From: Catenulispora pinistramenti
GTDB taxonomy: Bacteria > Actinomycetota > Actinomycetes > Streptomycetales > Catenulisporaceae
DNA: 64,000 nt
Assembly: GCF_018274385.1 (NCBI RefSeq)
Contig: NZ_JAAFYZ010000033.1
Coordinates: 1 to 64,000, forward strand
Direction of reading: 5' to 3'
Shown: one piece after another, positions 693 to 46,477 of the stretch
Layout of the letters: each line of letters starts with the position of its first letter
Numbering within the stretch: position 1 is the first letter of the stretch
Position numbers and translations under genes: made by a program
Notes under the pieces: model-generated
The model's input: the letters and a program-made list of their open reading frames with translations, nothing else
What the model was told of the DNA's origin: nothing
The model's database searches: none

Positions 693-699
693 CTTTCTG

Positions 700-773
700 T
701 GGACCTGAGGAGATTTGAACTCCTGACCCCCTCGATGCGAACGAGGTGCGCTACCAGACTGCGCCACAGGCCC
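700..773 (-). tRNA. tRNA-Ala (anticodon CGC)
   Basis: The minus strand folds into a full cloverleaf of 74 bases. The acceptor stem GGGCCTG pairs with CAGGTCC, the anticodon stem CCTCG/CGAGG encloses the loop TTCGCAT, and the T-loop is TTCAAAT. The anticodon CGC reads GCG (Ala). The discriminator base is A. CCA is not encoded. Confidence 0.96.
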
Positions 774-15809: not shown

Positions 15810-15956
15810 GTTCGGTGACTGCGGACGACTCCCAGTTGTGCGAGGCCTGAGGTGCTCAGGCGCGCCCAGGCGTCGATCGATTCCTTTCGGATACGGTGTC
15901 TGCGCACGTCAGATTGCTGATCTTGCTCGAGTTCGTTCACTCACGGGGAGAAGGGC

Positions 15957-16541
15957 ATGACAAGCCACCGTCTGATCGCCGCGCTTCTCGGAGCTGCTGT
16001 GAGTTGTGCAGGGCTGGCCGGCTGCGGCGGCTCGAGCTCGAAGCCGAACGCCAGCTTGAATCAGACGTTGCCCTCTATCACGGCCTCGACGTCATCTACG
16101 CCAGCTCCGTCTACGACGACCACATCCGTAGACCCGATCTCAGCGGCAGTGCTCAACGCCTAGAAGGCCTATAGCCAAGCAAAGATCCAGATGTACGACG
16201 AGGCGACGTTCGACGGCAACCTGATGAAGTACGCCTCCGGCCAGGAAGTCCAAAAGCGTCAACACAACGATCTCGGCTCTGCGCCAGACCGGTGTCAACT
16301 ACACCGGCACCCCGAACCCCAGCCCCACTGTCGTTTCGGTGACTGGCACCACTGCCCAGGTGCACGACTGCTTTGGCTCGACAACGTGGATACCGGTCTA
16401 CTTCGGCGGGTCCTGCAAGGGCAAGAGCGCGCTCGCACAGGGAAGCACAGTCGCCGCACATCCACTGACCGCTACGCTGACCAAGCAACAGGACGGTCGT
16501 TGGTACGTCACCAGGCCACCAACGAGACGGCCTCATGCTGA
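15957..16541 (+). pseudogene. Decayed copy of the tandem lipoprotein gene
   Basis: The start encodes a lipoprotein signal (LLGAAVSCAGLAGC) and Ser/Thr-rich linker, like its neighbour at 16913. The frame then hits TAG at 16161-16163. The matching sequence continues after it (KAYSQAKIQMYDEATFDGN) and later shifts by one base to the frame carrying VHDCFGSTTWIPVYFGG, which is the counterpart of ITDCFGGPSYIPVFWKT in the intact copy. A premature stop plus at least one frameshift make this a pseudogene. Confidence 0.82.
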
Positions 16542-18574: not shown

Positions 18575-19234
18575 GTGGCCGACACCACGTTTTATCCGAA
18601 TGCCGCCACTGGCCCCGTCATTCCGGCCGCGGCGCCGCGGGCGGTTCCACCGCGGCGCCGGCGCCCGGGGATCATCGCGTTGTCCGTGGCCCTGATCCTG
18701 GCCGGCGCGCTGGGTGGCGTGCAGCTTTACAACAGTGTCGGGCACACCTATGAGGTATTGGCGGTGGCTAAGGCGGTGCCGGTCGGGGGGATGATCTCGG
18801 CTGACGACCTGACTACCGTGCGTATCTCGCTGGATCCCGGGATCAAGCCGGTTTCGGATGCGGGCCTGGTTGTGGGCAAGCGGGCAGCGGTCGGGCTGGT
18901 GCCCGGCACGCTGATCACCAGGGGTGAGGTCACCGACGCCCAGCTTATCGGGGCGGGTCAGGTGCAGGTCGGTATTGCGACCACCGTCAATCAGCGTCCT
19001 GCCACGCCGTTGAACCCCGGGCAGAAGGTGACGCTCATCGGTATCCCCGACTCCTCGGGCGGTGGCCCGACGCTCTCGGCACCGGTTTCCGGCACGGTGG
19101 TGCTGGTCGGCCCGGCGGACTCGCAGCAGACGGTGGTGGTCGACGTCGCGATTTCAGCGGATCTTGCTCCGCAGGTTGAGCCGGTCGCGGGTCAGGGCAA
19201 GGTGGGGATCGTGCTGGATGGGTCGGGGAGCTAG
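18575..19234 (+). CDS. SAF-domain protein, CpaB/RcpC-like
   Basis: A 219-aa protein with one transmembrane helix at about residues 32-51 and an extracellular SAF domain (VLAVAKAVPVGGMISADDLTTVRI), the domain found in CpaB/RcpC pilus assembly proteins. In Gram-negative Tad systems RcpC supports the secretin. No secretin is expected in an actinobacterium, so here it probably helps pilus exit through the wall. GTG 18575. Its stop TAG shares a base with the GTG start of the next gene. Confidence 0.82.
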   Translation: MADTTFYPNAATGPVIPAAAPRAVPPRRRRPGIIALSVALILAGALGGVQLYNSVGHTYEVLAVAKAVPVGGMISADDLTTVRISLDPGIKPVSDAGLVVGKRAAVGLVPGTLITRGEVTDAQLIGAGQVQVGIATTVNQRPATPLNPGQKVTLIGIPDSSGGGPTLSAPVSGTVVLVGPADSQQTVVVDVAISADLAPQVEPVAGQGKVGIVLDGSGS

Positions 19235-20055
19235 TGGCTGTCATAGCTTTGACCGGCTCCACCGGCGCTCCAGGTGTGACCACCACGGCGCTGGGCCTGT
19301 TGCTCACTTGGCCGCTGGCCTCGGTTGACCGCAGAGTCATCCTTTTGGAGGCCAGCCCGGACGGTGGTCGGATTGCCGCCGGCTTTCTGGAGGGCCAGCT
19401 TGGCGGGCGCTGGTCCCTGCACAACCTGGCAGCTTCGATTTGGCAGGACACCATCAGGGAGACGTTCGCCCAGCAGTTGATCGACATTGGCCTCAAGGAA
19501 CGAGGTCAACGGCTTGCCCTTCCCGGGCTGCGTGGTCCGGCGCAGGCTTTGGCTATGGAGCCCGTGTGGGATCCGTTGGCGACCTTGTGCAGCTCGCTGG
19601 ACTTGTCCGGCACTGACGTGGTGATTGATCTGGGTCGTCGGGGCGCCTTCGGTTCTTCGGCCGCGCTGGCGCTCAGCGCGGATGTCGTGGCATTTGTGGT
19701 GCGGCGGCGGCTGGCGTCGTTGGACGACGCAGCCGCTCGCATCGAGGCGCTGCGGCCGATGCTGGTCGAGGCGGGCAACGCCGACGCACTGCGCCTGTTG
19801 ATCGTCGGCGACGGCCCCTACGACAAGAATGACATCGCGCGGCAGATGGGTGTGCCGCTGCTGGCCGATGAGCTGCCTTATTCGCCCAAGCACGCGGTGC
19901 CGCTTTCAGACGGCCCCGCAAAGGGCGTAGACATAAACAGTCCTCTGATGCGGGCTTACCGGTCGGCCGCACATCGCGCTGTGGAGGTCATTGCTGAACG
20001 CCGGGCCCGGCTCCTGTACCCCGGTCCGAGCGCAGGCACGGGGAGCTATCGTTGA
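19234..20055 (+). CDS. TadZ/CpaE-like ParA-family protein
   Basis: A 273-aa MinD/ParA-type protein. The N-terminus GSTGAPGVTTTALGLLLTW is a deviant Walker A without the usual two Lys residues, and VVIDLGRRG near residue 130 is the Walker B strand. In Tad systems TadZ places the pilus machine at the cell pole or at defined membrane sites. The loss of both Walker A lysines suggests weak or no ATP hydrolysis. GTG start overlaps the previous stop. Its own stop overlaps the TTG start of the ATPase. Confidence 0.82.
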   Translation: MAVIALTGSTGAPGVTTTALGLLLTWPLASVDRRVILLEASPDGGRIAAGFLEGQLGGRWSLHNLAASIWQDTIRETFAQQLIDIGLKERGQRLALPGLRGPAQALAMEPVWDPLATLCSSLDLSGTDVVIDLGRRGAFGSSAALALSADVVAFVVRRRLASLDDAAARIEALRPMLVEAGNADALRLLIVGDGPYDKNDIARQMGVPLLADELPYSPKHAVPLSDGPAKGVDINSPLMRAYRSAAHRAVEVIAERRARLLYPGPSAGTGSYR

Positions 20056-35274: not shown

Positions 35275-35976
35275 ATGAGGTTTGCTGTGTTCAAGCCCGA
35301 TACTGTGAACCGCCCTCGGTCCTGCACCGTCGCGGTGGCGGAGCCCAACGACGTGGTCCGGCTGGGGTTGGCGGCGATGCTCTGGGCGTTGGAGTCGGTG
35401 ACCGAGGTGGTGGCGTTGGCTTCGGCCGGCGACGGGGCCGAGGAGTTGCGCTCCACGAATGCTGATGTGGTGCTGGCTTCTTGTTCTCTGGAGTCGGAGG
35501 TCCTGGACGACATCCAGCGGTGGGCCGATGAGCGCGGCGCCAAGGTCCTGCTGGTCATCAGCAGCGCGGACGATCCGCGGTTGCCGGAGTTCGCGCGGCG
35601 GGCCGCCGACGGGCTCGTGCTGTTGGAGGGCCTGACCGTCGAACACCTCGGTGGTGCGCTGGCCACGTTGGGGCGCGGTGGGCAGGTGGCGGTTCCGGCC
35701 CGGCTGGCGCGGCAGCTGATCTTCGGTACCCAGTCGCAACGGCGCGCCGACTTCTGGCATCGCAATCTGTTGACCCAACGGGAGACGGACATCCTCCAGC
35801 TGCTCTCGCAGGGCTACAGCAACAAGCAGATAGCCCCGCGGATCGGCATCTCCGAGCACGGGGTGAAGCGGCACGTGGGCAACATCCTGGCCAAACTCAA
35901 CTGCTCCAACCGGACCGAGGCCGTGTCCTACGCCCTCCGGCAGAACCTGCTCACCGCCGCGCCCGCGGCGGGCTGA
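35275..35976 (+). CDS. LuxR-type regulator with degenerate receiver
   Basis: A 233-aa NarL/LuxR-family protein. The N-terminal receiver-like domain (about 17-140) has VAVAEPNDVVRLGL where DD is usual, and ADVVLAS with Ser69 at the phospho-acceptor Asp position. The C-terminal GerE-type helix-turn-helix (about 167-225) is intact: LTQRETDILQLLSQGYSNKQIAPRIGISEHG. It probably works without phosphorylation as an orphan, pathway-specific regulator, and no sensor kinase gene is near. ATG 35275 was used. It is followed at once by an exporter gene and borders the NRPS cluster, so it is a candidate cluster regulator. Confidence 0.86.
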   Translation: MRFAVFKPDTVNRPRSCTVAVAEPNDVVRLGLAAMLWALESVTEVVALASAGDGAEELRSTNADVVLASCSLESEVLDDIQRWADERGAKVLLVISSADDPRLPEFARRAADGLVLLEGLTVEHLGGALATLGRGGQVAVPARLARQLIFGTQSQRRADFWHRNLLTQRETDILQLLSQGYSNKQIAPRIGISEHGVKRHVGNILAKLNCSNRTEAVSYALRQNLLTAAPAAG

Positions 35977-35979
35977 CCG

Positions 35980-37248
35980 GTGGTGGGAACGGCCGTCGGG
36001 GATCCGGCGGCGCCGACCGGGGTCGGTCCCGACCGCCGGCGCGACTTCCGCACGTACTGGCTCGGCCAGAGCGTGAGCGTGGTGGGGGACCAGGTGGCGG
36101 CGTTCGTGCTGCCGACCATCGCGATCACCGGGTTCGGTGCCTCGGCCTTGCAGGTCGGCATCCTGAACACCGTCAACACCGGCGCCTACACGCTGCTGGG
36201 CCTGTTCGTCGGGGTGTTCATGGACCGGACCCGGCGCCGACCGGTGATGATCGTCTCCGATCTGGTCCGGGCCGCGGCCTTCGGTGCCGTCCCGCTGCTG
36301 TCCGCGGCCGGGCACCTGGGCATGGGCGTGCTCTACGTGGTCGCCGCGATAGCCGGGGTCTTCGCGGTGTTCTTCAACGTCGCGAGCCAGTCGCACCTGC
36401 CGGCGCTGGTCGGCTCGGACTTCCTGGGCACCGCGAACGCGCGCATGGAGATCTCCAACACGCTGAGCCTGGTCGTCGGGCCGACGCTCGGCGGCCTGCT
36501 GATCCAGTGGTGGGGCGGGCCGACGGCGATGTCCGTGAACGCGGTGTCGTTCCTGTTCTCCGTGGCCGGCGTCGTGCTGCTGCGGACGCCGGAGCCGCCG
36601 ATGGAGGCCAGGGCGGCGAGCCCGGTCTGGCACGATCTGCGCGAGGGCGTATCAGTACTCTGGCAGCATCCGGTGCTGCGCCGCACGACGATCGCCTCGG
36701 CCGCTCGCAACTTCGGCAACACCGCCGTCAACACCGTGCTGCTGCTGTTCGCCTACCGGGCGTTGAAGCTCTCCAGCGGCGTCGCGGGGCTGCTGTTCGC
36801 CTCGGGGACGGTCGCGGCGGTGCTCGGCGCCTGGACGGTGTCCCGGCTGCGGCGCCGGCTGGGCACCGGGGCGACGCTGCTGGCGGCCAACGGCGCCGGC
36901 GCGGTGTGGGTGCTGGCCCCGTTGGCGTTGGCGGTCCCGGCGCTGCCGCTGTTGATCCTGCTGCGGGTGGTGTCCTCGTTCTCGCTGCCGTTGTGGAACT
37001 CGATCGTGGTGACCCTGCGGCAGGGCGCGGTCCCGGCGAACCTGCTGGGCCGGGTCAACGCCACGGCCGGGACGTTGAACTTCTCGGCCGTGCCGGTGGG
37101 CGCGCTGGCCGCGGGGTTCGGAGCCCAGGCCGGGTCGGCCGCGTTCGGGACCCGGACCGGGCTGGCGCTGACCATGATGGCCGCGGGGATCTGCTCGGCC
37201 GCCGGGACCGTGGGTCTGCTGAGCCGGGAGGTCAGGACCCTGCCTTGA
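35980..37248 (+). CDS. MFS exporter
   Basis: A 422-aa major facilitator protein with about twelve hydrophobic helices and the loop motif GVFMDRTRRRPVMIVSDL after helix 2 (a DRxGRR-like signature of the drug-export class). GTG 35980 starts three bases after the regulator stop, so they are one operon; the adjacent second GTG is possible. It probably exports the peptide product or gives self-resistance. Its 3' end overlaps the convergent epimerase gene by 17 bases. Confidence 0.87.
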   Translation: MVGTAVGDPAAPTGVGPDRRRDFRTYWLGQSVSVVGDQVAAFVLPTIAITGFGASALQVGILNTVNTGAYTLLGLFVGVFMDRTRRRPVMIVSDLVRAAAFGAVPLLSAAGHLGMGVLYVVAAIAGVFAVFFNVASQSHLPALVGSDFLGTANARMEISNTLSLVVGPTLGGLLIQWWGGPTAMSVNAVSFLFSVAGVVLLRTPEPPMEARAASPVWHDLREGVSVLWQHPVLRRTTIASAARNFGNTAVNTVLLLFAYRALKLSSGVAGLLFASGTVAAVLGAWTVSRLRRRLGTGATLLAANGAGAVWVLAPLALAVPALPLLILLRVVSSFSLPLWNSIVVTLRQGAVPANLLGRVNATAGTLNFSAVPVGALAAGFGAQAGSAAFGTRTGLALTMMAAGICSAAGTVGLLSREVRTLP

Positions 37249-38206: not shown

Positions 38207-38857
38207 TCAGTCCAGGCGAACAGCGATGTACTGCGTCGCGGCACCCGCCGCGGCGAGGAACAGGAGTCCGGCGGCCGCGTAGCCGACGAAGCCGACGCCG
38301 GCGCTCGGATGGCCGCCGGTCATGGCGTGCAGCATCGGGTACACCGGAGGCAGCGGCTTGGCCAGGATCACTCCCAGCACCAGCGCCAGCCCGACCAGCA
38401 CCGAGGCCCCCGGCCGGCCGATCACCAGCCGCGAGCACAGCAGTCCCAGGCCGATGCCGACCGCCGCGCAGGTGAGCTCCGCGGCGGCACCGAGCAGCAC
38501 CGAGCGCACCAGCACCGTGTGCGAGCCCGAGATGACCGGGTAGCCCAGCCCGATCACGACCATCCCGACGCAGAACGTCGCCGAGACGGCGACGGCGGCG
38601 GCGAGCGGACCGCGCGCGTTGCCGGCGTTCACCACGACGATCGTCCGGCCGACCGGTTCCTCGATGTTGACCACGGCCGCGGTCAGCCAGGTCGCACAGG
38701 CCAGTACCGATACGGCGGCCGCGGCGTAGACACCGAGCAACGGACCGCTGTCGCTGCTGGTGAGGACGGCGAGCAGGGCCAGGAAGAAGACCATCGGGGC
38801 CACGTAGCGCTGGGAGTGCAAGGCGGTCGAGAGGGTGTAGCGGTACAGCGCTTTCAT
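38207..38857 (-). CDS. ABC transporter permease, ABC-2-like
   Basis: A 216-aa protein with about six transmembrane helices and almost no loops, starting MKALYRYTLSTALHSQRYV, an amphipathic first stretch typical of ABC-2 type permeases. ATG 38857 overlaps the stop of the ATPase gene (ATGA), so the pair is a transporter. The longer frame upstream overlaps the ATPase and is not used. It likely moves the peptide or a precursor, or protects the cell. Confidence 0.82.
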   Translation of the reverse strand: MKALYRYTLSTALHSQRYVAPMVFFLALLAVLTSSDSGPLLGVYAAAAVSVLACATWLTAAVVNIEEPVGRTIVVVNAGNARGPLAAAVAVSATFCVGMVVIGLGYPVISGSHTVLVRSVLLGAAAELTCAAVGIGLGLLCSRLVIGRPGASVLVGLALVLGVILAKPLPPVYPMLHAMTGGHPSAGVGFVGYAAAGLLFLAAAGAATQYIAVRLD

Positions 38858-39831
38858 CGCTGGCCGCCGATCTGGTTCGCCGGGTTCGCCGGGCCGCTGC
38901 CGACACCGCTGACGCCGCCGACGCCGCCGACGCCACGGACACCGCCCGAGCCGCCGACGCCGTTCGCCCCGGCCGTGACACCGCCGAGCAGATTCGGCGG
39001 CTCGGCGGCATCGTTGTGCCGCACTCCGTCGACAGTCCACCCGCCCTGCAACGCGACCAGCAGCAAGGCATCGCACCGGTCCCGGTCCACGCGTACCCGG
39101 ACCACATCGCCGGTGGCCTCCAGCGAGCGCGTCCCGGCCAGCCCGCGCAAATCAACGGCCTGCGGTCGCGTCGCCCGCAGCAGGACTTCCGACGCCGTGT
39201 CGTGCACCCGCGTCGGGAGGGCCTGCCGGGACAGCCGTCCGGCCTCGATCCGGTAGACCTCGGTCGCGAGCCCGCCGGTGATCGCCTCGCGGTGGTCGGT
39301 GAACACCACGGCGCCGCCGGAGCGTGCCGTGTCCACGATGATCTGGGCCAGTACCCCGTGCGCGGAGGCGTCCAGCCCCGACCACGGTTCGTCCAGGATG
39401 AGCAGGCGTGGCGGCATCAGCAGGGCCTGCGCCAGGGCGACCTTCTGGGCGTTGCCCTTGGACAGCTCGCGGATCGGGGTCTTGGGACCGCCGACCAGGT
39501 CCAGCCGGGTCAGCAGTTCGGTCGCCCGCTCGGCCGAGCGGGCCGTACTGAGACCCTTGATACGGCCCATGTGCGCCAGGTACGCCTCGGCGGACAGCCG
39601 GGTGCTCGTGGGGAACCGGTCCGGGACGTAGCCGATGACGCCCGGGTCGCCGGTGCGGGTGCCGGAGCTGGGTCGGCTCACCCCGGCCAGAACCCGCAGA
39701 AGCGTCGACTTGCCTGAGCCGTTGCCGCCGGTGACGGCCTGCACCGTCCCCGGCGCGGTGGTGAAGTCGACGTCGACCAGGACCGGACGGCCCGGCCGAT
39801 AGCGTTTGCTCACAGACTGGAGAGTCAGCAC
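38854..39831 (-). CDS. ABC transporter ATPase with Gly-Val-rich tail
   Basis: A 325-aa ABC ATPase. Walker A GGNGSGKST at residues 35-43, signature LSKGN at 123-127, Walker B LLILDEPWSGLD from 143, and H-loop near FTDHREA. The last 45 residues are a repeated Gly-Val stretch (GGVGGVSGVG) that is not part of the usual fold and may come from repeat expansion. GTG 39831 overlaps the hpgT stop by 7 bases. The gene forms one run with hmaS, hmo, hpgT and the permease. Confidence 0.9.
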   Translation of the reverse strand: MLTLQSVSKRYRPGRPVLVDVDFTTAPGTVQAVTGGNGSGKSTLLRVLAGVSRPSSGTRTGDPGVIGYVPDRFPTSTRLSAEAYLAHMGRIKGLSTARSAERATELLTRLDLVGGPKTPIRELSKGNAQKVALAQALLMPPRLLILDEPWSGLDASAHGVLAQIIVDTARSGGAVVFTDHREAITGGLATEVYRIEAGRLSRQALPTRVHDTASEVLLRATRPQAVDLRGLAGTRSLEATGDVVRVRVDRDRCDALLLVALQGGWTVDGVRHNDAAEPPNLLGGVTAGANGVGGSGGVRGVGGVGGVSGVGSGPANPANQIGGQR

Positions 39832-41207
39832 CGGGGAGGTTCCTTCTGTATCGAGGTATAAGAGTCGAGCCCCGTTATTGTCTGTTCCAGATGCCTGCTA
39901 TCGGTATCAATACGCTTGGATTCAGCCTTTTCGGTGGTCGTCGCGAACAAGGCGGCCAGTCGGTCGAGTCCGTCCTCGATGCGTTCCGGGGTGAGCACGC
40001 TGCAGGACAGCCGGATCGCCCGCGCCGCGCCGGGCCCGGAGGCGAAGTGCCGCATCGGTGTCCACAGCACGCCGAACTCCCGTGCGGAGCGTTCCAACAG
40101 CGCGTCGTCGGCGTCGAAGGGCACGGACAACACCAGGAAGAAGCCGCCGTGCGGCCGGTTCCAGGAGATGCCGGAGCCGGCCGGGAACCGCTTGGCCAGG
40201 GCTTCCAGCAGGGCGGCCATGTTGCGCCGGTAGACCGCGATCTCCCGCTCGTTGGCCTGGACCAGGCTGCACCCGTGGGTCAGCAGTTTGCCCGCGACCA
40301 CCGCCTGGGCGATCGGCGAGGTGTTCACGGTGAGCATGCTCTTGATCTTCGCCAGCTCGTCGGCCAGGAGTCCGCCGCCGACCGTCTCCTGGTCCGCGAC
40401 CAGGTACCCGACCCGTGCGCCCGGCATCCCGGTCTTGGCGAAGGAGCCGAGGTAGACGACCCGCCGTCCGGTGTCGATCGACTTCAGCGTCGGCGGCCGC
40501 TCGTCCCCGGCGGAGAACAGCCCGTAGGGGTTGTCTTCCAGGATCAGGAAGTCCTCGGTCTCGGCCAGCTTCAGCAGCGCGTGCCGGTCGGCGGTCGACA
40601 GGCTGATACCCGAGGGGTTCGAATGGTCGGCCACGATGTAGCAGGCGCGCGGGCGTCGGCCCTCGGCCTTGAGCCGGCGGATCGCCTCGGCCAGGGCGGG
40701 CAGGTCCACGCCGGCCGGGCCGCCGGGCACGGCCACGGTCGGCAGGTCGGCCAGCCGCGCCGCGCCGACGATGCCGACGTAGGCCGGTGCCACCGTGAGC
40801 AGGACGTCCCGTTCGTCGGCGCGCAGGGCGCGCAGGACGAGGAACATCGCTTCCTGGCATCCCACGGTGACGACGATCGACTCCGGCGCGGCGTGGATCC
40901 CCTCGTCGATCGCCAGATGTTCGGCGACCAGGTCGTCGATGACGCCCTTGGTGCGGCCGTACTGGAACAGGATCCGGCAGACCTGTTCGTCGGTGAGGCC
41001 CTTCTCCTGCCGGAGGTAGCTCTCGAACCGCTCCAGGTATTCGTGGATGAGCCGGGTGTCGAAGAACTCTTCGTAAGGCCGTCCGGGCGCGAAGGAGACG
41101 GCGTCGGGATAGCGGTTCGCTATCTCGTTGAGGAAGTTCATCGAGTCCAGCGCCGGATCGGACAGTGAGGCATGCAGATCCGTCACCTTGATGGCCGCGG
41201 TGGTCAT
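39825..41207 (-). CDS. hpgT: 4-hydroxyphenylglycine aminotransferase HpgT
   Basis: A 460-aa PLP-dependent class I/II aminotransferase. It makes L-4-hydroxyphenylglycine from 4-hydroxyphenylglyoxylate. Visible: ADHSNPSGISLS and LEDNPYGLF (cofactor-binding stretches), the PLP Lys258 in GSFAKTGMPGARVGYL, and IRLSCSVL near the end (the carboxylate-binding Arg). The family identity rests on the operon with hmaS and hmo as well as sequence. ATG 41207 has GGAGGGG upstream and overlaps the hmo stop (ATGA). A C-terminal extension of about 30 residues is not usual. Confidence 0.9.
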   Translation of the reverse strand: MTTAAIKVTDLHASLSDPALDSMNFLNEIANRYPDAVSFAPGRPYEEFFDTRLIHEYLERFESYLRQEKGLTDEQVCRILFQYGRTKGVIDDLVAEHLAIDEGIHAAPESIVVTVGCQEAMFLVLRALRADERDVLLTVAPAYVGIVGAARLADLPTVAVPGGPAGVDLPALAEAIRRLKAEGRRPRACYIVADHSNPSGISLSTADRHALLKLAETEDFLILEDNPYGLFSAGDERPPTLKSIDTGRRVVYLGSFAKTGMPGARVGYLVADQETVGGGLLADELAKIKSMLTVNTSPIAQAVVAGKLLTHGCSLVQANEREIAVYRRNMAALLEALAKRFPAGSGISWNRPHGGFFLVLSVPFDADDALLERSAREFGVLWTPMRHFASGPGAARAIRLSCSVLTPERIEDGLDRLAALFATTTEKAESKRIDTDSRHLEQTITGLDSYTSIQKEPPRC

Positions 41208-42304
41208 ACCGATCCCCTCCAGATGGTCAGCGTCCGTGCCGCCGCCGGATCCGGACAGCCGGCCAGGCCGAGCGCCTCGGCGAATTCCTGGTGGAACAGG
41301 CCGAGGACGCGGTCCGCCCCGGCCTCGCCGTCGGCGGCCAGGCCCCACAGCGCCGGCCGGCCGATCAGCACCGCGTCGGCGCCGAGAGTCAGGGCCCGCA
41401 TGATGTCCAGGCCGCTGCGTATCCCGCTGTCGAACAGTACGGTGCCGCGGTCGCCGACCGCCTCCCGGACCGCCGTGACCGCGTCGGCCGAGGCGATCGC
41501 GCCGTCCAGCTGACGCCCGCCGTGGTTGGAGACCACGACCGCGTCGGCTCCGAGGCTGATCGCCTTCGCTGCGTCCCGCGGATCCAGGATCCCCTTGACA
41601 ATCAATGGAATCGACGCGGCCCGCCGCAGCTCGGTCAGGTCCGGCCAGGTGAAGGCCGCGAAGGTGGCGGCGGTGTGCGCGGCCACCGCGGAGTCGCCGA
41701 CGACCGCCTGCCGCGCGCCGGCGGCTGCGCTCGAATCCGTGAAGTTGGCGGCACTGACGTGGGCCGGGACCGTGAACTCGTTGCGCACGTCCCGCAGCCG
41801 CCGCGCCATCCACGGCACGTCGACCGTCACCATCAGCGCCGCGCATCCGGCGGCCTCGGCCCGGCGGACCAGGTCCCGCGACTGCTCCCGGTCGCGCAAC
41901 GGATACAGCTGGAACCACGTGGTGCCGCCGACCTCGGCGACCTGCTCCAGCGGGGTGCTGCTCATGGTCGAGACCGTGAACGGGATCCCGGCGCGCTTCG
42001 CGGCCCGGGCCAGGGCGAGCTCGCCGTCGGGGTGGACCAGTCGCTGGTAGGCGATGGGCGCGATCGCCGCGGGCATCGCGGCCCGGACCCCGAACAGATC
42101 GGTCCCGGTGTGCCGCCCGCTGAGGTCACCCATAGCCCGCGGCACGAGGGCGACGCGGTCCAGGGCGGCGCGGTTCGCGGCCAGGGTGGTCTCGGCGCCG
42201 CTGCCGCCGGCGACGAAGTCCCACACCTCACCGGGCAACCGCGCACGGGCGATCTGCTCGAATTCGACCACCGACTGGGCGCCGGGCCCAGGTGTCGTCA
42301 GCAT
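41204..42304 (-). CDS. hmo: 4-hydroxymandelate oxidase Hmo
   Basis: A 366-aa FMN-dependent alpha-hydroxy acid oxidase. It oxidises 4-hydroxymandelate to 4-hydroxyphenylglyoxylate. Visible: AIAPIAYQRLVHPDGE, FQLYPLRDRE, VTVDVPWMARRLRD (FMN region), IVKGILDPRDA with the flavin Lys, and SNHGGRQLDG with the catalytic His261. DSGIRSGLDIMRAL and LGADAVLIGRPALWG complete the flavin site. The start overlaps the hmaS stop (TGATG) and its stop overlaps hpgT. Confidence 0.92.
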   Translation of the reverse strand: MLTTPGPGAQSVVEFEQIARARLPGEVWDFVAGGSGAETTLAANRAALDRVALVPRAMGDLSGRHTGTDLFGVRAAMPAAIAPIAYQRLVHPDGELALARAAKRAGIPFTVSTMSSTPLEQVAEVGGTTWFQLYPLRDREQSRDLVRRAEAAGCAALMVTVDVPWMARRLRDVRNEFTVPAHVSAANFTDSSAAAGARQAVVGDSAVAAHTAATFAAFTWPDLTELRRAASIPLIVKGILDPRDAAKAISLGADAVVVSNHGGRQLDGAIASADAVTAVREAVGDRGTVLFDSGIRSGLDIMRALTLGADAVLIGRPALWGLAADGEAGADRVLGLFHQEFAEALGLAGCPDPAAARTLTIWRGSV

Positions 42305-43392
42305 CAGGACCCTGACTGCTCCAGCTCGACCGCCTCGTACAGGGCCTTGATGTTGTTCGACCCGAACAGCCGGGCCCCGGCCCGTTCGATGACCTCGAAG
42401 AAGAGCGTGCGCCGCGGGTGGGTGGAGCGGGTGAACAGCTGGAACAGCTCGCCGCCGTGGTCCTCGTCGACCAGGATGCCCGCCGCGCGCAGTTCCGCGA
42501 TCGGGTGGCCGGCCGGCACGAACCGGTTCGGCAGCAGGTCGTAGTAGGTCCCGGGGGTCTTCAGGAACTCCACCCCGCGGTGCCGCATCGACTCGACCGC
42601 GTGGACGACGTCGTCGGTGGCGAACGCGATGTGCTGCACGCCCGCGCCGCCGTGGTCCTTGATGAACTGGTCGATCTGCCCGGGCGCGCAGTTCACGTCG
42701 GGCTCCAGGATCGTGAAGGTCACGCCGCCGGACCGGCTCTGCACCACCTTGGAGTCCATGGCCTGCGAACCGACGATGATCCGCTCCTCGAACGTCTGCC
42801 GGAAGCCCAGGGCGGTGGTGTAGAAATCGATCGTCTGGTCCAGGGACCGGTTCGGGACGCAGACGGCGAAGTGGTCCATCGTGTGCAGTCCCGGCGCGTC
42901 GTCCGGTTCGGGGGCGGCCACGCCCGGCGCTCCGGGAAGAGGGCTGAAGCCCGGCGGCAGGACCGCGTCCGTTGTGGGTTCGCCCTGCAGGAACGTGTGG
43001 GTGACGTCGCCGAACGCCCGGATCGAGGCCGTGCGCACCCCGTCGGGACCGTCATGGGGCTCGGCCATCGCCGGGGCGCCGGCCGCCACCGCCGAGGCGA
43101 AGACCGCGTCCACGTCGGTGGTCCGCATGGCTATGTCGGCGACGCCGGGGCCGTGGGAGAGCACGTACGCGGTGCAGGGGTGGTCGTCGGTCAGGGCCTC
43201 GGTGAGCACCACCACCGCGCGCCCGCCGATCAGCGCCACGCTGCGGAAGCCCTGTTCGCGGGAGCCCGCGACGCCGGCCGGCCGTAGGCCGTACCGGTCG
43301 GTGAAGACGTCGCGCCAGGTGTCCAGATCCTCGACGTGGAGTTCGACATGGGCCAGGTCGAGGTCGGTGCCGACCGGTGCTTGGGTATGCAT
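42304..43392 (-). CDS. hmaS: 4-hydroxymandelate synthase HmaS
   Basis: A 362-aa non-haem iron dioxygenase of the HPPD/HmaS family. It converts 4-hydroxyphenylpyruvate to 4-hydroxymandelate, the first step to Hpg. The iron ligands are visible: His174 (MDHFAVCV), His254 (VQHIAFAT) and Glu333 (LFFEVIER). Sequence alone resembles HPPD; the overlap with hmo and hpgT decides for HmaS. ATG 43392 with GGGGAGCC upstream is preferred over the longer frame. First gene of the minus-strand operon, divergent from panD. Confidence 0.9.
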
Positions 43393-43459
43393 GGCTCCCC
43401 GTTTCGCGTCGCAGAACGATCGCCTTTCACTATCGCAACGGTCGCCGCACCGGCGATGC

Positions 43460-43505
43460 CCGTTCGGGGTGCCCGTTCGGCTACCCGAACGGGCACCCCG
43501 AACGG
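43460..43505. promoter_or_regulatory. Long perfect inverted repeat between hmaS and panD
   Basis: Two 21-bp arms (CCGTTCGGGGTGCCCGTTCGG at 43460-43480 and its exact complement at 43485-43505) flank a 4-base loop. Each arm itself has CCGTTCGG twice. It sits between two divergent operons, so it is not a terminator by position; an operator for a dimeric regulator, such as the LuxR-type protein at 35275, is the likely role. Confidence 0.65.
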
Positions 43506-43575
43506 CGCTCCGTCCCGGCCGCCGCCGCACCTAGCATCCGAAGTGATCGAGGACGACCACGGGGAGGTCCACCAC

Positions 43576-44010
43576 ATGTCCGCGACCACCATCGCCTTTC
43601 GCGACATGCTCAAGTCGAAGATCCACCGGGCCACGGTGACCCAGTCCGACCTGCACTACGTGGGTTCCATCACCGTCGACGCCACCCTGATGGCCGCCGC
43701 CGACCTGCTCCCCGGCGAGAAGGTCGACGTCGTCGACATCGACAACGGCAACCGGTTCTCGACCTACGTGATCGAAGGTCCCGCCGACAGCGGCGTGATC
43801 GGGGTCAACGGCGCCGCGGCCCGCCTGGTGGCCCCCGGCGACCTGGTGATCGTCATCTCCTACTCGGCGGTGGCCGAGGAGCACGCCCGCTCCTTCCAGC
43901 CGCGCATCGTCTTCGTCGACGCCGAGAACCGCATCGCGGCCGCGGGTTCGGACCCCGCGGCGGCGCCGGCCGGCTCCGGCCTGCTCCGGGGCGACGCCGC
44001 ACAGGTCTGA
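43576..44010 (+). CDS. panD: Aspartate 1-decarboxylase PanD
   Basis: A 144-aa pyruvoyl-dependent decarboxylase that turns L-Asp into beta-alanine. [20 protein letters not shown] at 11-30 is the family signature; cleavage between Gly30 and Ser31 makes the pyruvoyl group. [12 protein letters not shown] and [19 protein letters not shown] complete the core. ATG 43576 has GGGGAGGT upstream and is preferred over the longer frame. It starts the plus-strand operon with P450, glycosyltransferase and NRPS, which ties it to peptide supply rather than only to pantothenate. Confidence 0.93.
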
Positions 44011-44081: not shown

Positions 44082-45311
44082 ATGGATTTCGAAGCGCTCA
44101 CCACGCTGCCCGCCGCCGAGCGGATCACCGAGCTGTTCGCCTACTTCGCCGACCGGCGCGCCCGCGAGGCGGCCGGGCCGAGCAGCCAGCCCAACGTCTG
44201 GGAGGTCTTCCGCTACGAGGAGTCGATGGCGGTCCTGTCCGACTACGAGACCTTCACCAGCGACAAGACCGCGCTGATCCCCGAGGACCAGAAGCGGCTG
44301 GCGCAAGCCGCCCGCGGCAACTTCATCGGCATCGACCCGCCGCTGCACACCCAGATGCGGGCCCTGGTCAACAAGGCGTTCACGCCCAGCACGATCGCCA
44401 AGCTGGAACCGCGCATCCACGACCTGTCCGAGAACCTGCTCGACGAGGTCTTCGGCGCGGCCGAGCCCGGTGGCGAAGCCGCCTTCGACCTGGCCCAGGA
44501 CTACGCCAGCCAGCTGAGCGCCTCGGTCATCGCCGAGCTGTTCGGCATCCCGCAGGCCGACCACAAGGTGTTCTGGACCTGGTCGGACGGTCTGATCGGG
44601 TCCCGGCCGTTCGGCGAGCTGGGCACGGTCGACGAGGAGGCGATGCGCAAGATCGGCAAGCTGCTGGAGGAGGCCAGCCTCTATCTGCTGGCACACGTCG
44701 CCGAGCGCCGCGCCGATCCGCGCGAGGACCTGACCAGCACGCTGGCCAGTGTCGAGATCGACGGCAGGAAGCTCCAGGACGACGAGATCTTCGGCATCAT
44801 CGCCATGTTCCTGATCGCCGGCCACATGTCCACCTCGCTGCTGATCGGCAACACCGTGATGGGCCTGGCCGAGCACCCCGACGCGCTGGCCGAGGTGCGC
44901 GCCGACCCCGGTCTGCTGCCGTCGGCGATCGAGGAGGTGCTGCGCTGGCGCCCGGCCCTGATCCGCGACCAGCGGGTGGCCCGGGTCGACACGGTTCTGG
45001 GCGGCACCCCGATCCCCAAGGGCGGCAACGTCTGTGTCTGGCTGGCCTCGGCCAACCGCGACGAGCGGGTGTTCGCCGACGGCGCGCGCTTCGACATCCA
45101 CCGCGACCCCAACCCGCACCGCGCGTTCGGCAAGGGCATCCACTTCTGCCTCGGCGCGCCGCTGGCCCGGCTGGAGTCCCGGATCGCGGTCGAGGGCCTG
45201 CTGCGCCGCACCTCCGACATCGTGCCGCGGGACGGCGTCGCGCTGCATTCCTCGGTCGGCCTCATCGGCCCGGTCCGGCTGCCGGTATCGGCGACCCTGG
45301 CAGAACGCTGA
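44082..45311 (+). CDS. Cytochrome P450 with unusual I-helix
   Basis: A 409-aa bacterial P450. The haem loop FGKGIHFCLG has Cys356 as ligand. EEVLRWRPAL with the ExxR pair is intact. In the I-helix, LIAGHMSTSLLIGN has Met249 and Ser250 where AGHET is usual, so the acid of the acid-alcohol pair is missing. ATG 44082 has GGAGA upstream and is preferred over the longer frame. It probably hydroxylates or cross-links an amino acid on the peptide. Its stop overlaps the glycosyltransferase start (TGATG). Confidence 0.92.
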   Translation: MDFEALTTLPAAERITELFAYFADRRAREAAGPSSQPNVWEVFRYEESMAVLSDYETFTSDKTALIPEDQKRLAQAARGNFIGIDPPLHTQMRALVNKAFTPSTIAKLEPRIHDLSENLLDEVFGAAEPGGEAAFDLAQDYASQLSASVIAELFGIPQADHKVFWTWSDGLIGSRPFGELGTVDEEAMRKIGKLLEEASLYLLAHVAERRADPREDLTSTLASVEIDGRKLQDDEIFGIIAMFLIAGHMSTSLLIGNTVMGLAEHPDALAEVRADPGLLPSAIEEVLRWRPALIRDQRVARVDTVLGGTPIPKGGNVCVWLASANRDERVFADGARFDIHRDPNPHRAFGKGIHFCLGAPLARLESRIAVEGLLRRTSDIVPRDGVALHSSVGLIGPVRLPVSATLAER

Positions 45312-46477
45312 TGCGGGTCCTGGCCACCGCCGCGCCGGGCTCGGGGCTCTTCCTGCCGACGGTCCCGCTGGCCTGGGCCCTGCGCGCGGCCGGGCACGAG
45401 GTGCTGATGGTGAACACCGGCGCCACCTCGAACGCCGTGGCGGCCAGCGGTTTCTCGACCGTCGACGCGGCTCCGGGCGTCGACGTCCATGCCGAGTTCC
45501 TGGCCGCCAGCCAAGCGGTCCTGGCCGCCACCGACGGAACCCGGCCCAAGCGTTCGGGCATGGGGATGTTCGGCGAGGCGATGGCCGACGGACTCCTTCG
45601 CGCCGCGGAACACTTCCGTCCCGACCTCGTGGTGTCCACCCTCGAACAGGGCGCGGGGGAGTTGGTGGCGGCCAGGTACGCGATCCCGTATGTGGAGCAG
45701 AGCGTGCGGCTGGCCTGGGCCGGACCGGACGAGCAGGCGGCGAAGTACCGCGCCGCCGTCGCCGAGTATCTGCTGCCGACCCGGGAGCGGCTGGGTATCT
45801 CAGTGCCCTACACCGAGCCCGCCGCCTGCCTCGACATCCGGCCGGCGAGCCTGGGCGGCCACGACTCCAAGACCGAGTGGCCGCTGCGGTACGTCCCTTA
45901 CAACGAGGGCCGGGTGCTGCCCGACTGGATACTCGACCGCCCGGACCGGCCGCGGGTGTGCGTGACGATGGGCAGCGTGCTGGGCAGCCTCCCGGCGGGT
46001 TCGGAGCTGAAGCAGCTCTATGTGGCCGTGGTCCGGGAGATCCTGCTGGAGCTCGCGGGTCTGGGCGTCGAGACCGTCGTGGCCATGGGCGAATCCGACC
46101 TCGAAGGCGTCGGCGAGCTGCCCGAGTCGGTGCGGATCGCGGGCTGGACGCCGCTGAGCGCGCTGTTGCCCACCTGCTCGGCGATCGTCCACCACGGCGG
46201 CGCCGGCACCTCGCTGACCGCGCTGGCCCTCGGCGTGCCCCAGGTGGTGCTGCCGCAGGGCGCCGACCAGCCGGCCAACGCCGCCGTGCTGGCCGAGCGG
46301 GGGCTGGCGGTCCTGATCCGGCCGGAGACGATCAGCGCGGCGGCGGTGCGCGACGGCCTGGCGCGGGTGCTCGACGAGCCCGGGTTCGGCTCAGCCGCCG
46401 AGGCGGTGCGCGCCGAGATGCACGCGATGCCCAGCCCCGCCGACGTCGCCGGAAGCCTGGCCGCCCTGGCCGGCTGA
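45311..46477 (+). CDS. Family 1 glycosyltransferase
   Basis: A 388-aa GT1/GT-B enzyme of the natural-product class. The N-terminal acceptor half starts MRVLATAAPGSGLFLPTVPL. The C-terminal donor half has GWTPLSALLPTCSAIVHHGG and AGTSLTALALGVPQVVLPQG, the UDP/TDP-sugar-binding motif (HHGGAGTS near 294). It probably glycosylates a hydroxyl of Hpg, Tyr or a P450-made alcohol. No deoxysugar genes are in the window, so the sugar source is unknown. ATG overlaps the P450 stop. Confidence 0.9.
   Translation: MRVLATAAPGSGLFLPTVPLAWALRAAGHEVLMVNTGATSNAVAASGFSTVDAAPGVDVHAEFLAASQAVLAATDGTRPKRSGMGMFGEAMADGLLRAAEHFRPDLVVSTLEQGAGELVAARYAIPYVEQSVRLAWAGPDEQAAKYRAAVAEYLLPTRERLGISVPYTEPAACLDIRPASLGGHDSKTEWPLRYVPYNEGRVLPDWILDRPDRPRVCVTMGSVLGSLPAGSELKQLYVAVVREILLELAGLGVETVVAMGESDLEGVGELPESVRIAGWTPLSALLPTCSAIVHHGGAGTSLTALALGVPQVVLPQGADQPANAAVLAERGLAVLIRPETISAAAVRDGLARVLDEPGFGSAAEAVRAEMHAMPSPADVAGSLAALAG

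Follow-up and report, generated by a model that had tools for sequence, protein, structure and literature searches.

We propose that a palindrome lying between two divergent operons of Catenulispora pinistramenti is a bidirectional operator of four boxes, to which the regulator encoded at 35275-35976 would bind and thereby activate the hmaS and panD operons jointly. On sequence evidence we consider this probable. The palindrome occupies positions 43460 to 43505 of the window, the 64,000-nt stretch of DNA analysed here. We observed the four-box sequence itself, its recurrence in clusters bearing the same regulator subfamily, its rarity elsewhere in the genus, and a shared 13-bp register that, at three loci, keeps a set distance to likely -10 elements; from this pattern we infer protein binding, activation rather than repression, and where the -10 elements lie.

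A four-box inverted repeat between hmaS and panD

The first-pass annotation of this DNA had described a perfect 21-bp palindrome with a 4-base loop, each arm holding two copies of CCGTTCGG, in the divergent hmaS/panD region, and all of this was borne out. The two arms (43460-43480 and 43485-43505, 21 nt each) are 100% complementary, at 21 of 21 positions, around the loop CTAC at the dyad centre (43481-43484, no strand), and the whole lies mid-way in a 183-bp gap between the ATG of hmaS (43392, minus strand) and that of panD (43576, plus strand). CCGTTCGG starts at 43460 and 43473 on the plus strand and at 43485 and 43498 on the minus strand. The boxes of the left arm (plus strand) are 43460-43467 and 43473-43480, and those of the right arm (minus strand) are 43485-43492 and 43498-43505, reading CCGAACGG on the plus strand; the four boxes (CCGTTCGG/CCGAACGG) follow one another at spacings of 13, 12 (the inner pair) and 13 bp. 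A fuller repeat unit is the 11-nt TGCCCGTTCGG, found at 43457-43467 and 43470-43480 with a 2-nt spacer and a period of 13, and the single boxes are each nearly palindromic. When the longest perfect arms (loops of 3-10) were determined in 12 Markov-1 random 64-kb sequences, they reached 9-14 nt, compared with 21 nt in the window. Within the arm, the direct repeat of 8 nt was likewise unusual when compared with 2000 shuffles of the same arm (p 0.0035), and the fold of the 183-nt gap is highly stable (z -6.2).

The genes on either side form two runs. The hmaS-type gene (42304-43392, minus strand) belongs to the 4-hydroxyphenylpyruvate dioxygenase family (TIGR01263, E 7.2e-97), is by context a putative hydroxymandelate synthase gene, and comes first in a minus-strand run (38854-43392) that continues with genes for FMN oxidase, aminotransferase and ABC ATPase. 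On the plus strand, panD, encoding aspartate 1-decarboxylase (43576-44010), heads a panD-P450-glycosyltransferase-NRPS run that extends from 43576 to beyond 64000. Within it (44082-46477), the P450 adjoins a glycosyltransferase of the activator-dependent type, both scoring under the NCBIfam cut-offs, and this P450 may be a glycosyltransferase helper instead of an oxidase.

A LuxR-type (GerE-HTH) gene and an MFS gene occupy 35275-37248. The former (35275-35976, plus strand) encodes a 233-aa GerE-HTH protein whose receiver-like N-terminus does not contain the phospho-acceptor Asp, and it is our candidate for the proposed activator. The protein matches VraR and NarL over their full length, GerE HTH included. 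Aligned with VraR, the protein has Ser in place of the phospho-acceptor Asp, EP in place of the acidic pair DD and Glu in place of the conserved Lys; the aligned VraR positions are those we take to be the functional phosphorylation residues. These replacements make control by phosphorylation unlikely. Among Pfam models, GerE alone scored above its cut-off, and Response_reg gave no match at E values up to 0.05. We conclude that the protein, as far as its sequence tells, is an atypical (pseudo-receiver) NarL/VraR-like response regulator and not a LuxR protein of the autoinducer type, which refines the earlier label of 'LuxR-type'. No box pair was found upstream of the regulator gene itself, which lies 8 kb from the candidate operator.

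Candidate -10 elements were picked by eye on both sides of the palindrome: TAGCAT for the panD operon (43532-43537, plus strand; box ends 26, 39, 51 and 64 nt upstream) and GATAGT for the hmaS operon (43429-43434, minus strand; box ends 25, 38, 50 and 63 nt upstream). Their distances to the centre of the dyad are 51 and 52 bp. A sigma-70 scan detected no promoter for either operon, and neither the scan nor inspection by eye gave a recognisable -35 element at either promoter, which matches the expectation for activator-dependent promoters. According to the direction of its GGTGC spacer, each arm points to the farther operon, at 51-64 nt, a distance as in the dioxygenase box pair described below. 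The atypical response regulator would occupy the four 8-bp boxes, which, as judged from these gaps, would cover approximately -39 to -84 at either promoter; the bound protein would abut the -35 regions on both sides and activate both divergent promoters. A single site between the two promoters would couple Hpg supply to the panD, tailoring and NRPS genes.

Recurrence of the boxes beside related regulator genes

The first-pass annotation had raised the possibility that the palindrome is the operator of the cluster regulator and had suggested searching the cluster's upstream regions and related clusters for CCGTTCGG pairs. The other upstream regions of the window yielded no second site, the two arms being the only sequences to exceed 17 of 21; the left arm scores 21/21 against a 21-mer consensus partly derived from that arm. 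Related clusters gave a positive answer: four sister genomes have such pairs, as does another locus of this genome, in each case with relatives of the LuxR-type gene. Arrays of bare CCGNNCGG, with strand and spacer ignored, were dropped as a search motif, being too frequent in GC-rich DNA.

The second array in this genome (contig C323) consists of boxes GCGATCGG, CCGATCGG and CCGATCGG, 13 bp apart, ahead of an AMP-binding ligase gene. It was first met by a looser DNA pattern alone, and the adjoining LuxR-type gene was recognised afterwards; the product of that gene is 47% identical to the 35275-35976 protein, with a near-identical HTH and the same recognition-helix stretch, SEHGVKRHV. Three further genomes of the genus carry regulator relatives that are 36-38% identical, with a box pair between the regulator gene and its neighbour, a tryptophan 2,3-dioxygenase gene (one of the three neighbours was identified). 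Across 14 genomes of the family, eight subfamily regulator genes were found, and the clusters of seven of them contain a box pair; at the eighth (G012, locus L118, same family) no site was found. Because closely matching sites adjoin related regulator genes elsewhere, the palindrome is probably the operator of the cluster's own regulator, and the linked box pairs support the earlier suggestion to that effect.

We gauged the rarity of the boxes with the 21-mer CNGNTCGGGGTRCCCGNTCGG, a pattern assembled from the window and C323 sites and, for its first position, from the dioxygenase sites. Its zero-mismatch occurrences in 10 genus genomes number six, and every one fell in a cluster with the regulator subfamily; they represent three loci plus sister-species copies, and since the pattern was derived from known sites, the 6/6 gauges rarity elsewhere and is not an independent discovery. 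At one mismatch, 3 of 12 occurrences in the same genomes were linked to the subfamily, and the reversed pattern gave 2 matches in total. Six of the nine unlinked one-mismatch matches were inspected: one lies within a long open frame (G002:C555), four within likely genes (L158, L148, L149 and L153), and L147 was without clear placing; the remaining three (G002:C500, G000:C101 and G007:C35) fell outside that inspection. Three other genomes of the genus have HmaS-type loci (L137-L139); the best scores there were 15-17, and no site stood out over background.

The boxes also keep their distance to the candidate -10 elements. At C323, box ends lie 26, 39 and 52 nt ahead of TAGGAT (picked by eye), and at the three dioxygenase promoters the pair ends 52 nt ahead of TAGGAT or TACGAT, with weaker box-like stretches closer to the -10. 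Together with the panD/hmaS gaps, these loci fit one register of ~26/39/52/65, with all -10 elements chosen by eye. In 1.2 Mb of this genome, none of 25 TAG[CG]AT hexamers was preceded at 26 nt by the end of a CCGNNCGG. The panD and C323 promoters are also similar outside the boxes (TAGCATCCGAAGTGATCGAGGA and TAGGATCTGAAAGTGATCAAGGA, respectively), a likeness that may reflect shared ancestry of the promoters.

As a held-out set, we used 25 loci of relatives from one genus of the order (presumed Streptomyces), ~3.6 kb each, drawn from a longer list of relatives. The letters of the consensus, CCGWTCGGGGTRCCCGWTCGG, come from the window and C323, and it was already in use before most of these loci were obtained; four of the 25 (L121, L122, L124 and L125) had already been scored with it earlier. 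Controls were 100 equal-size pieces from 20 control stretches of the same genus and the same GC content (71.8%). With cut-offs set after the scores were known, 8/25 held-out loci scored at least 17 of 21 and 4/25 at least 18, compared with 6/100 and 0/100 of the controls (Fisher p 0.001 each). None of 300 permuted consensus strings attained the same counts in 27 loci (the 25 plus L118 and L123). After one member of each of two orthologous-looking pairs (L173 and L174) was dropped and L190 was inadvertently omitted, the counts were 6/22 and 4/22 (p 0.008 and 0.0008) in a set that still holds near-identical relatives, e.g. L177/L179 and L182/L183. A strong site accompanied the helix HG[VI]KRHV in 3/4 cases versus 5/22 otherwise, a weak association (p 0.07, L190 excluded).

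A site scoring at least 17 within ~1.5 kb was absent at 19 of 27 held-out relatives, the G012 relative among them, and several held-out matches lay outside obvious promoter positions. A consensus-free measure of 13-bp periodicity at 34 regulator loci gave ratios of 0 to 1.19, depending on the setting, and hence no enrichment; these loci reach only ~1.5 kb, so that the window's own candidate operator falls outside. A 13-bp period common to loci of regulator homologues was thus not found. The relatives with no site, the unclear promoter positions and the negative periodicity result make the extension beyond Catenulispora suggestive only. Two other repeats were seen at loci of regulator relatives: a run of ~13-bp GCGTTCGGCCAC-like repeats in L128 (1695-1780), ~8 kb from the regulator relative, and a tandem 17-bp repeat, AGGGGCCGGGAGTTCCA, in ~five copies near the regulator relative of L124 (1165-1260).

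A wider reading, which we put forward tentatively and would not bet on, is that Catenulispora and presumed Streptomyces share a phosphorylation-independent subfamily of LuxR-type activators which reads a code of boxes with a 13-bp period in fixed register to the -10, and that the mirrored array of the window is a single switch for precursor supply and NRPS. If this reading were true, cluster targets would be predictable from the regulator's recognition helix. The palindrome provides a testable candidate operator for the regulator subfamily and a handle on an Hpg-type NRPS cluster via one gene.

Other explanations for the palindrome

The palindrome could instead act as RNA, a GC-rich hairpin serving as a terminator or attenuator that halts transcripts running back from each promoter, or as a leader element. 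The stable fold of the gap would suit such a role, and the genome's other intergenic perfect hairpins lie at gene 3' ends, few of them with a T run in the 10 bases past the stem. We surveyed perfect hairpins (arms of at least 15, loops of 3-10) in the window and 60 stretches of 20 kb (1.264 Mb, ~11% of the 11.46-Mb genome), taking gene context from a crude ORF caller. The survey returned 31 hairpins (11 convergent, 13 tandem, 5 in-ORF and 2 at edges or unclassed), with a gene 3' end no more than 102 bp from every convergent and 82 bp from every tandem one. The window hairpin was classed as in a gene only owing to the hmaS frame, which stays open ahead of the likely hmaS start; of the other four in-gene hairpins, two lie near the 5' end of the called ORF, with neighbours that are tandem and not divergent. 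Across the 31 contexts, the window hairpin is therefore the sole one found between divergent genes. Exact direct repeats within the arms of the other 30 reach at most 5 nt, which speaks against a role in RNA. In agreement with the first-pass view that a terminator is unlikely between divergent genes, no gene 3' end is close by, and a scan of 43380-43600, which is blind to T-less terminators, found no terminator-like site (hairpin plus T run). Neither mRNA would include the hairpin, since it lies upstream of both likely starts, as we infer them. The C323 and dioxygenase box arrays do not form a long hairpin of the window type, and the version in the closest named relative found, Catenulispora pinisilvae NH11 (HmaS 96% identical, ~96% DNA identity along the cluster), breaks two stem pairs yet retains the CCGNNCGG box form: its first box reads CCGAACGG for CCGTTCGG and its loop GTAG for CTAC, the remaining 42 of 46 bases being identical. 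This copy is no better conserved than its flanks (92% versus 95-97%), a point that counts against the operator reading. Overall, a function in RNA seems to us quite improbable.

Should the site serve a different regulator, be it a repressor or a global factor, the linkage to LuxR-type genes would come from common descent of related cluster promoters. The likeness of the panD and C323 promoters beyond the boxes would fit this explanation, as would nearly palindromic boxes, which suit many dimeric regulators. The dioxygenase and presumed Streptomyces loci, however, contain different genes and still have a site near the same regulator subfamily, and a global factor should have sites apart from the subfamily, whereas zero-mismatch ones of this kind number 0 in 10 genomes. 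We consider this explanation unlikely. Small mobile repeats often contain hairpins, and a dispersed repeat, a mobile-element remnant or chance could be invoked on that ground; we give these next to no credence. A search for the four-box pattern that allowed up to three mismatches gave a single copy in this genome; of 10 genus genomes, only this one and one other have the pattern, and of 394 sampled class genomes only this one has it. A multi-copy repeat element is thereby refuted, and the arm length far exceeds that in random sequence. The palindrome was likewise not found to be widespread at convergent gene ends, the finding that the first-pass annotation had named as speaking for a repeat or terminator.

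Several other repeats were noted in the course of these searches. Between 43460-43484 and its sister-species counterpart (L136), both TT to AA in the box and CTAC to GTAG in the loop read as inversions of spacers between inverted repeats, as template switching would produce. The 21-mer CGGATGGGGGTACCCGTTTGG occurs four times in one genome of another genus of the family (G013:C1, at 176972, 555562, 944815 and 4368297) as a dispersed repeat. In the window, a perfect 17-bp hairpin (306-343) directly behind the 5S rRNA gene (180-296) and a near-perfect one (660-696; 17 nt, 94%) beside a tRNA-Ala gene (699-773, minus strand) are likely ordinary terminators. In locus L100, three inverted repeats that contain GTTTCACGGGAAAC or the partner arm lie within ~4 kb (15947-15996, 18850-18886 and 19912-19950); they resemble parS sites.

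Comparison with known systems

In a literature search that left subscription papers mostly outside, we found no description of the targets of this regulator subfamily and recognised no paper on the regulation of the window's cluster. The type of operator is known already, and the four-box site that we propose as the target of the 35275-35976 regulator would be a further member. The protein resembles the NarL/FixJ-type regulators VraR (PDB 5hev) and NarL (1a04) in its full-length match and GerE HTH, and is unlike VraR at the three replaced positions described above. By description, it also resembles PapR6, RedZ, JadR1, Cgc1 and VmsT, which the accessible parts of two reports (PMC12632262, PMC11784345) present as atypical response regulators of antibiotic clusters; the features in common are a location within the cluster, a link to specialised metabolism and the absence of phosphorylation residues.

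The closest parallel for the DNA site is MilO, an atypical orphan REC-LuxR pathway activator of the mildiomycin cluster that acts at the milA promoter. According to the accessible part of its report (PMC11784345), the MilO site is a 44 bp footprint with three 11-bp direct repeats, TGTCN3CGGT, separated by 2-nt spacers, which gives a 13-bp period, the same as that of the window boxes. Both sites are direct repeats of this period near a pathway promoter, TGCCCGTTCGG at 43457 and 43470 having the same 2-nt spacer, and the likeness extends to the CGG within each MilO repeat. MilO has 356 aa and the 35275-35976 protein 233 aa, and the two are likened by description and operator period, not by protein sequence. 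The MilO repeats are unidirectional and are reported to precede the milA start site by 142 bp, whereas the four boxes of the window form a mirror-image array between two promoters, directly adjoining the likely -35 regions.
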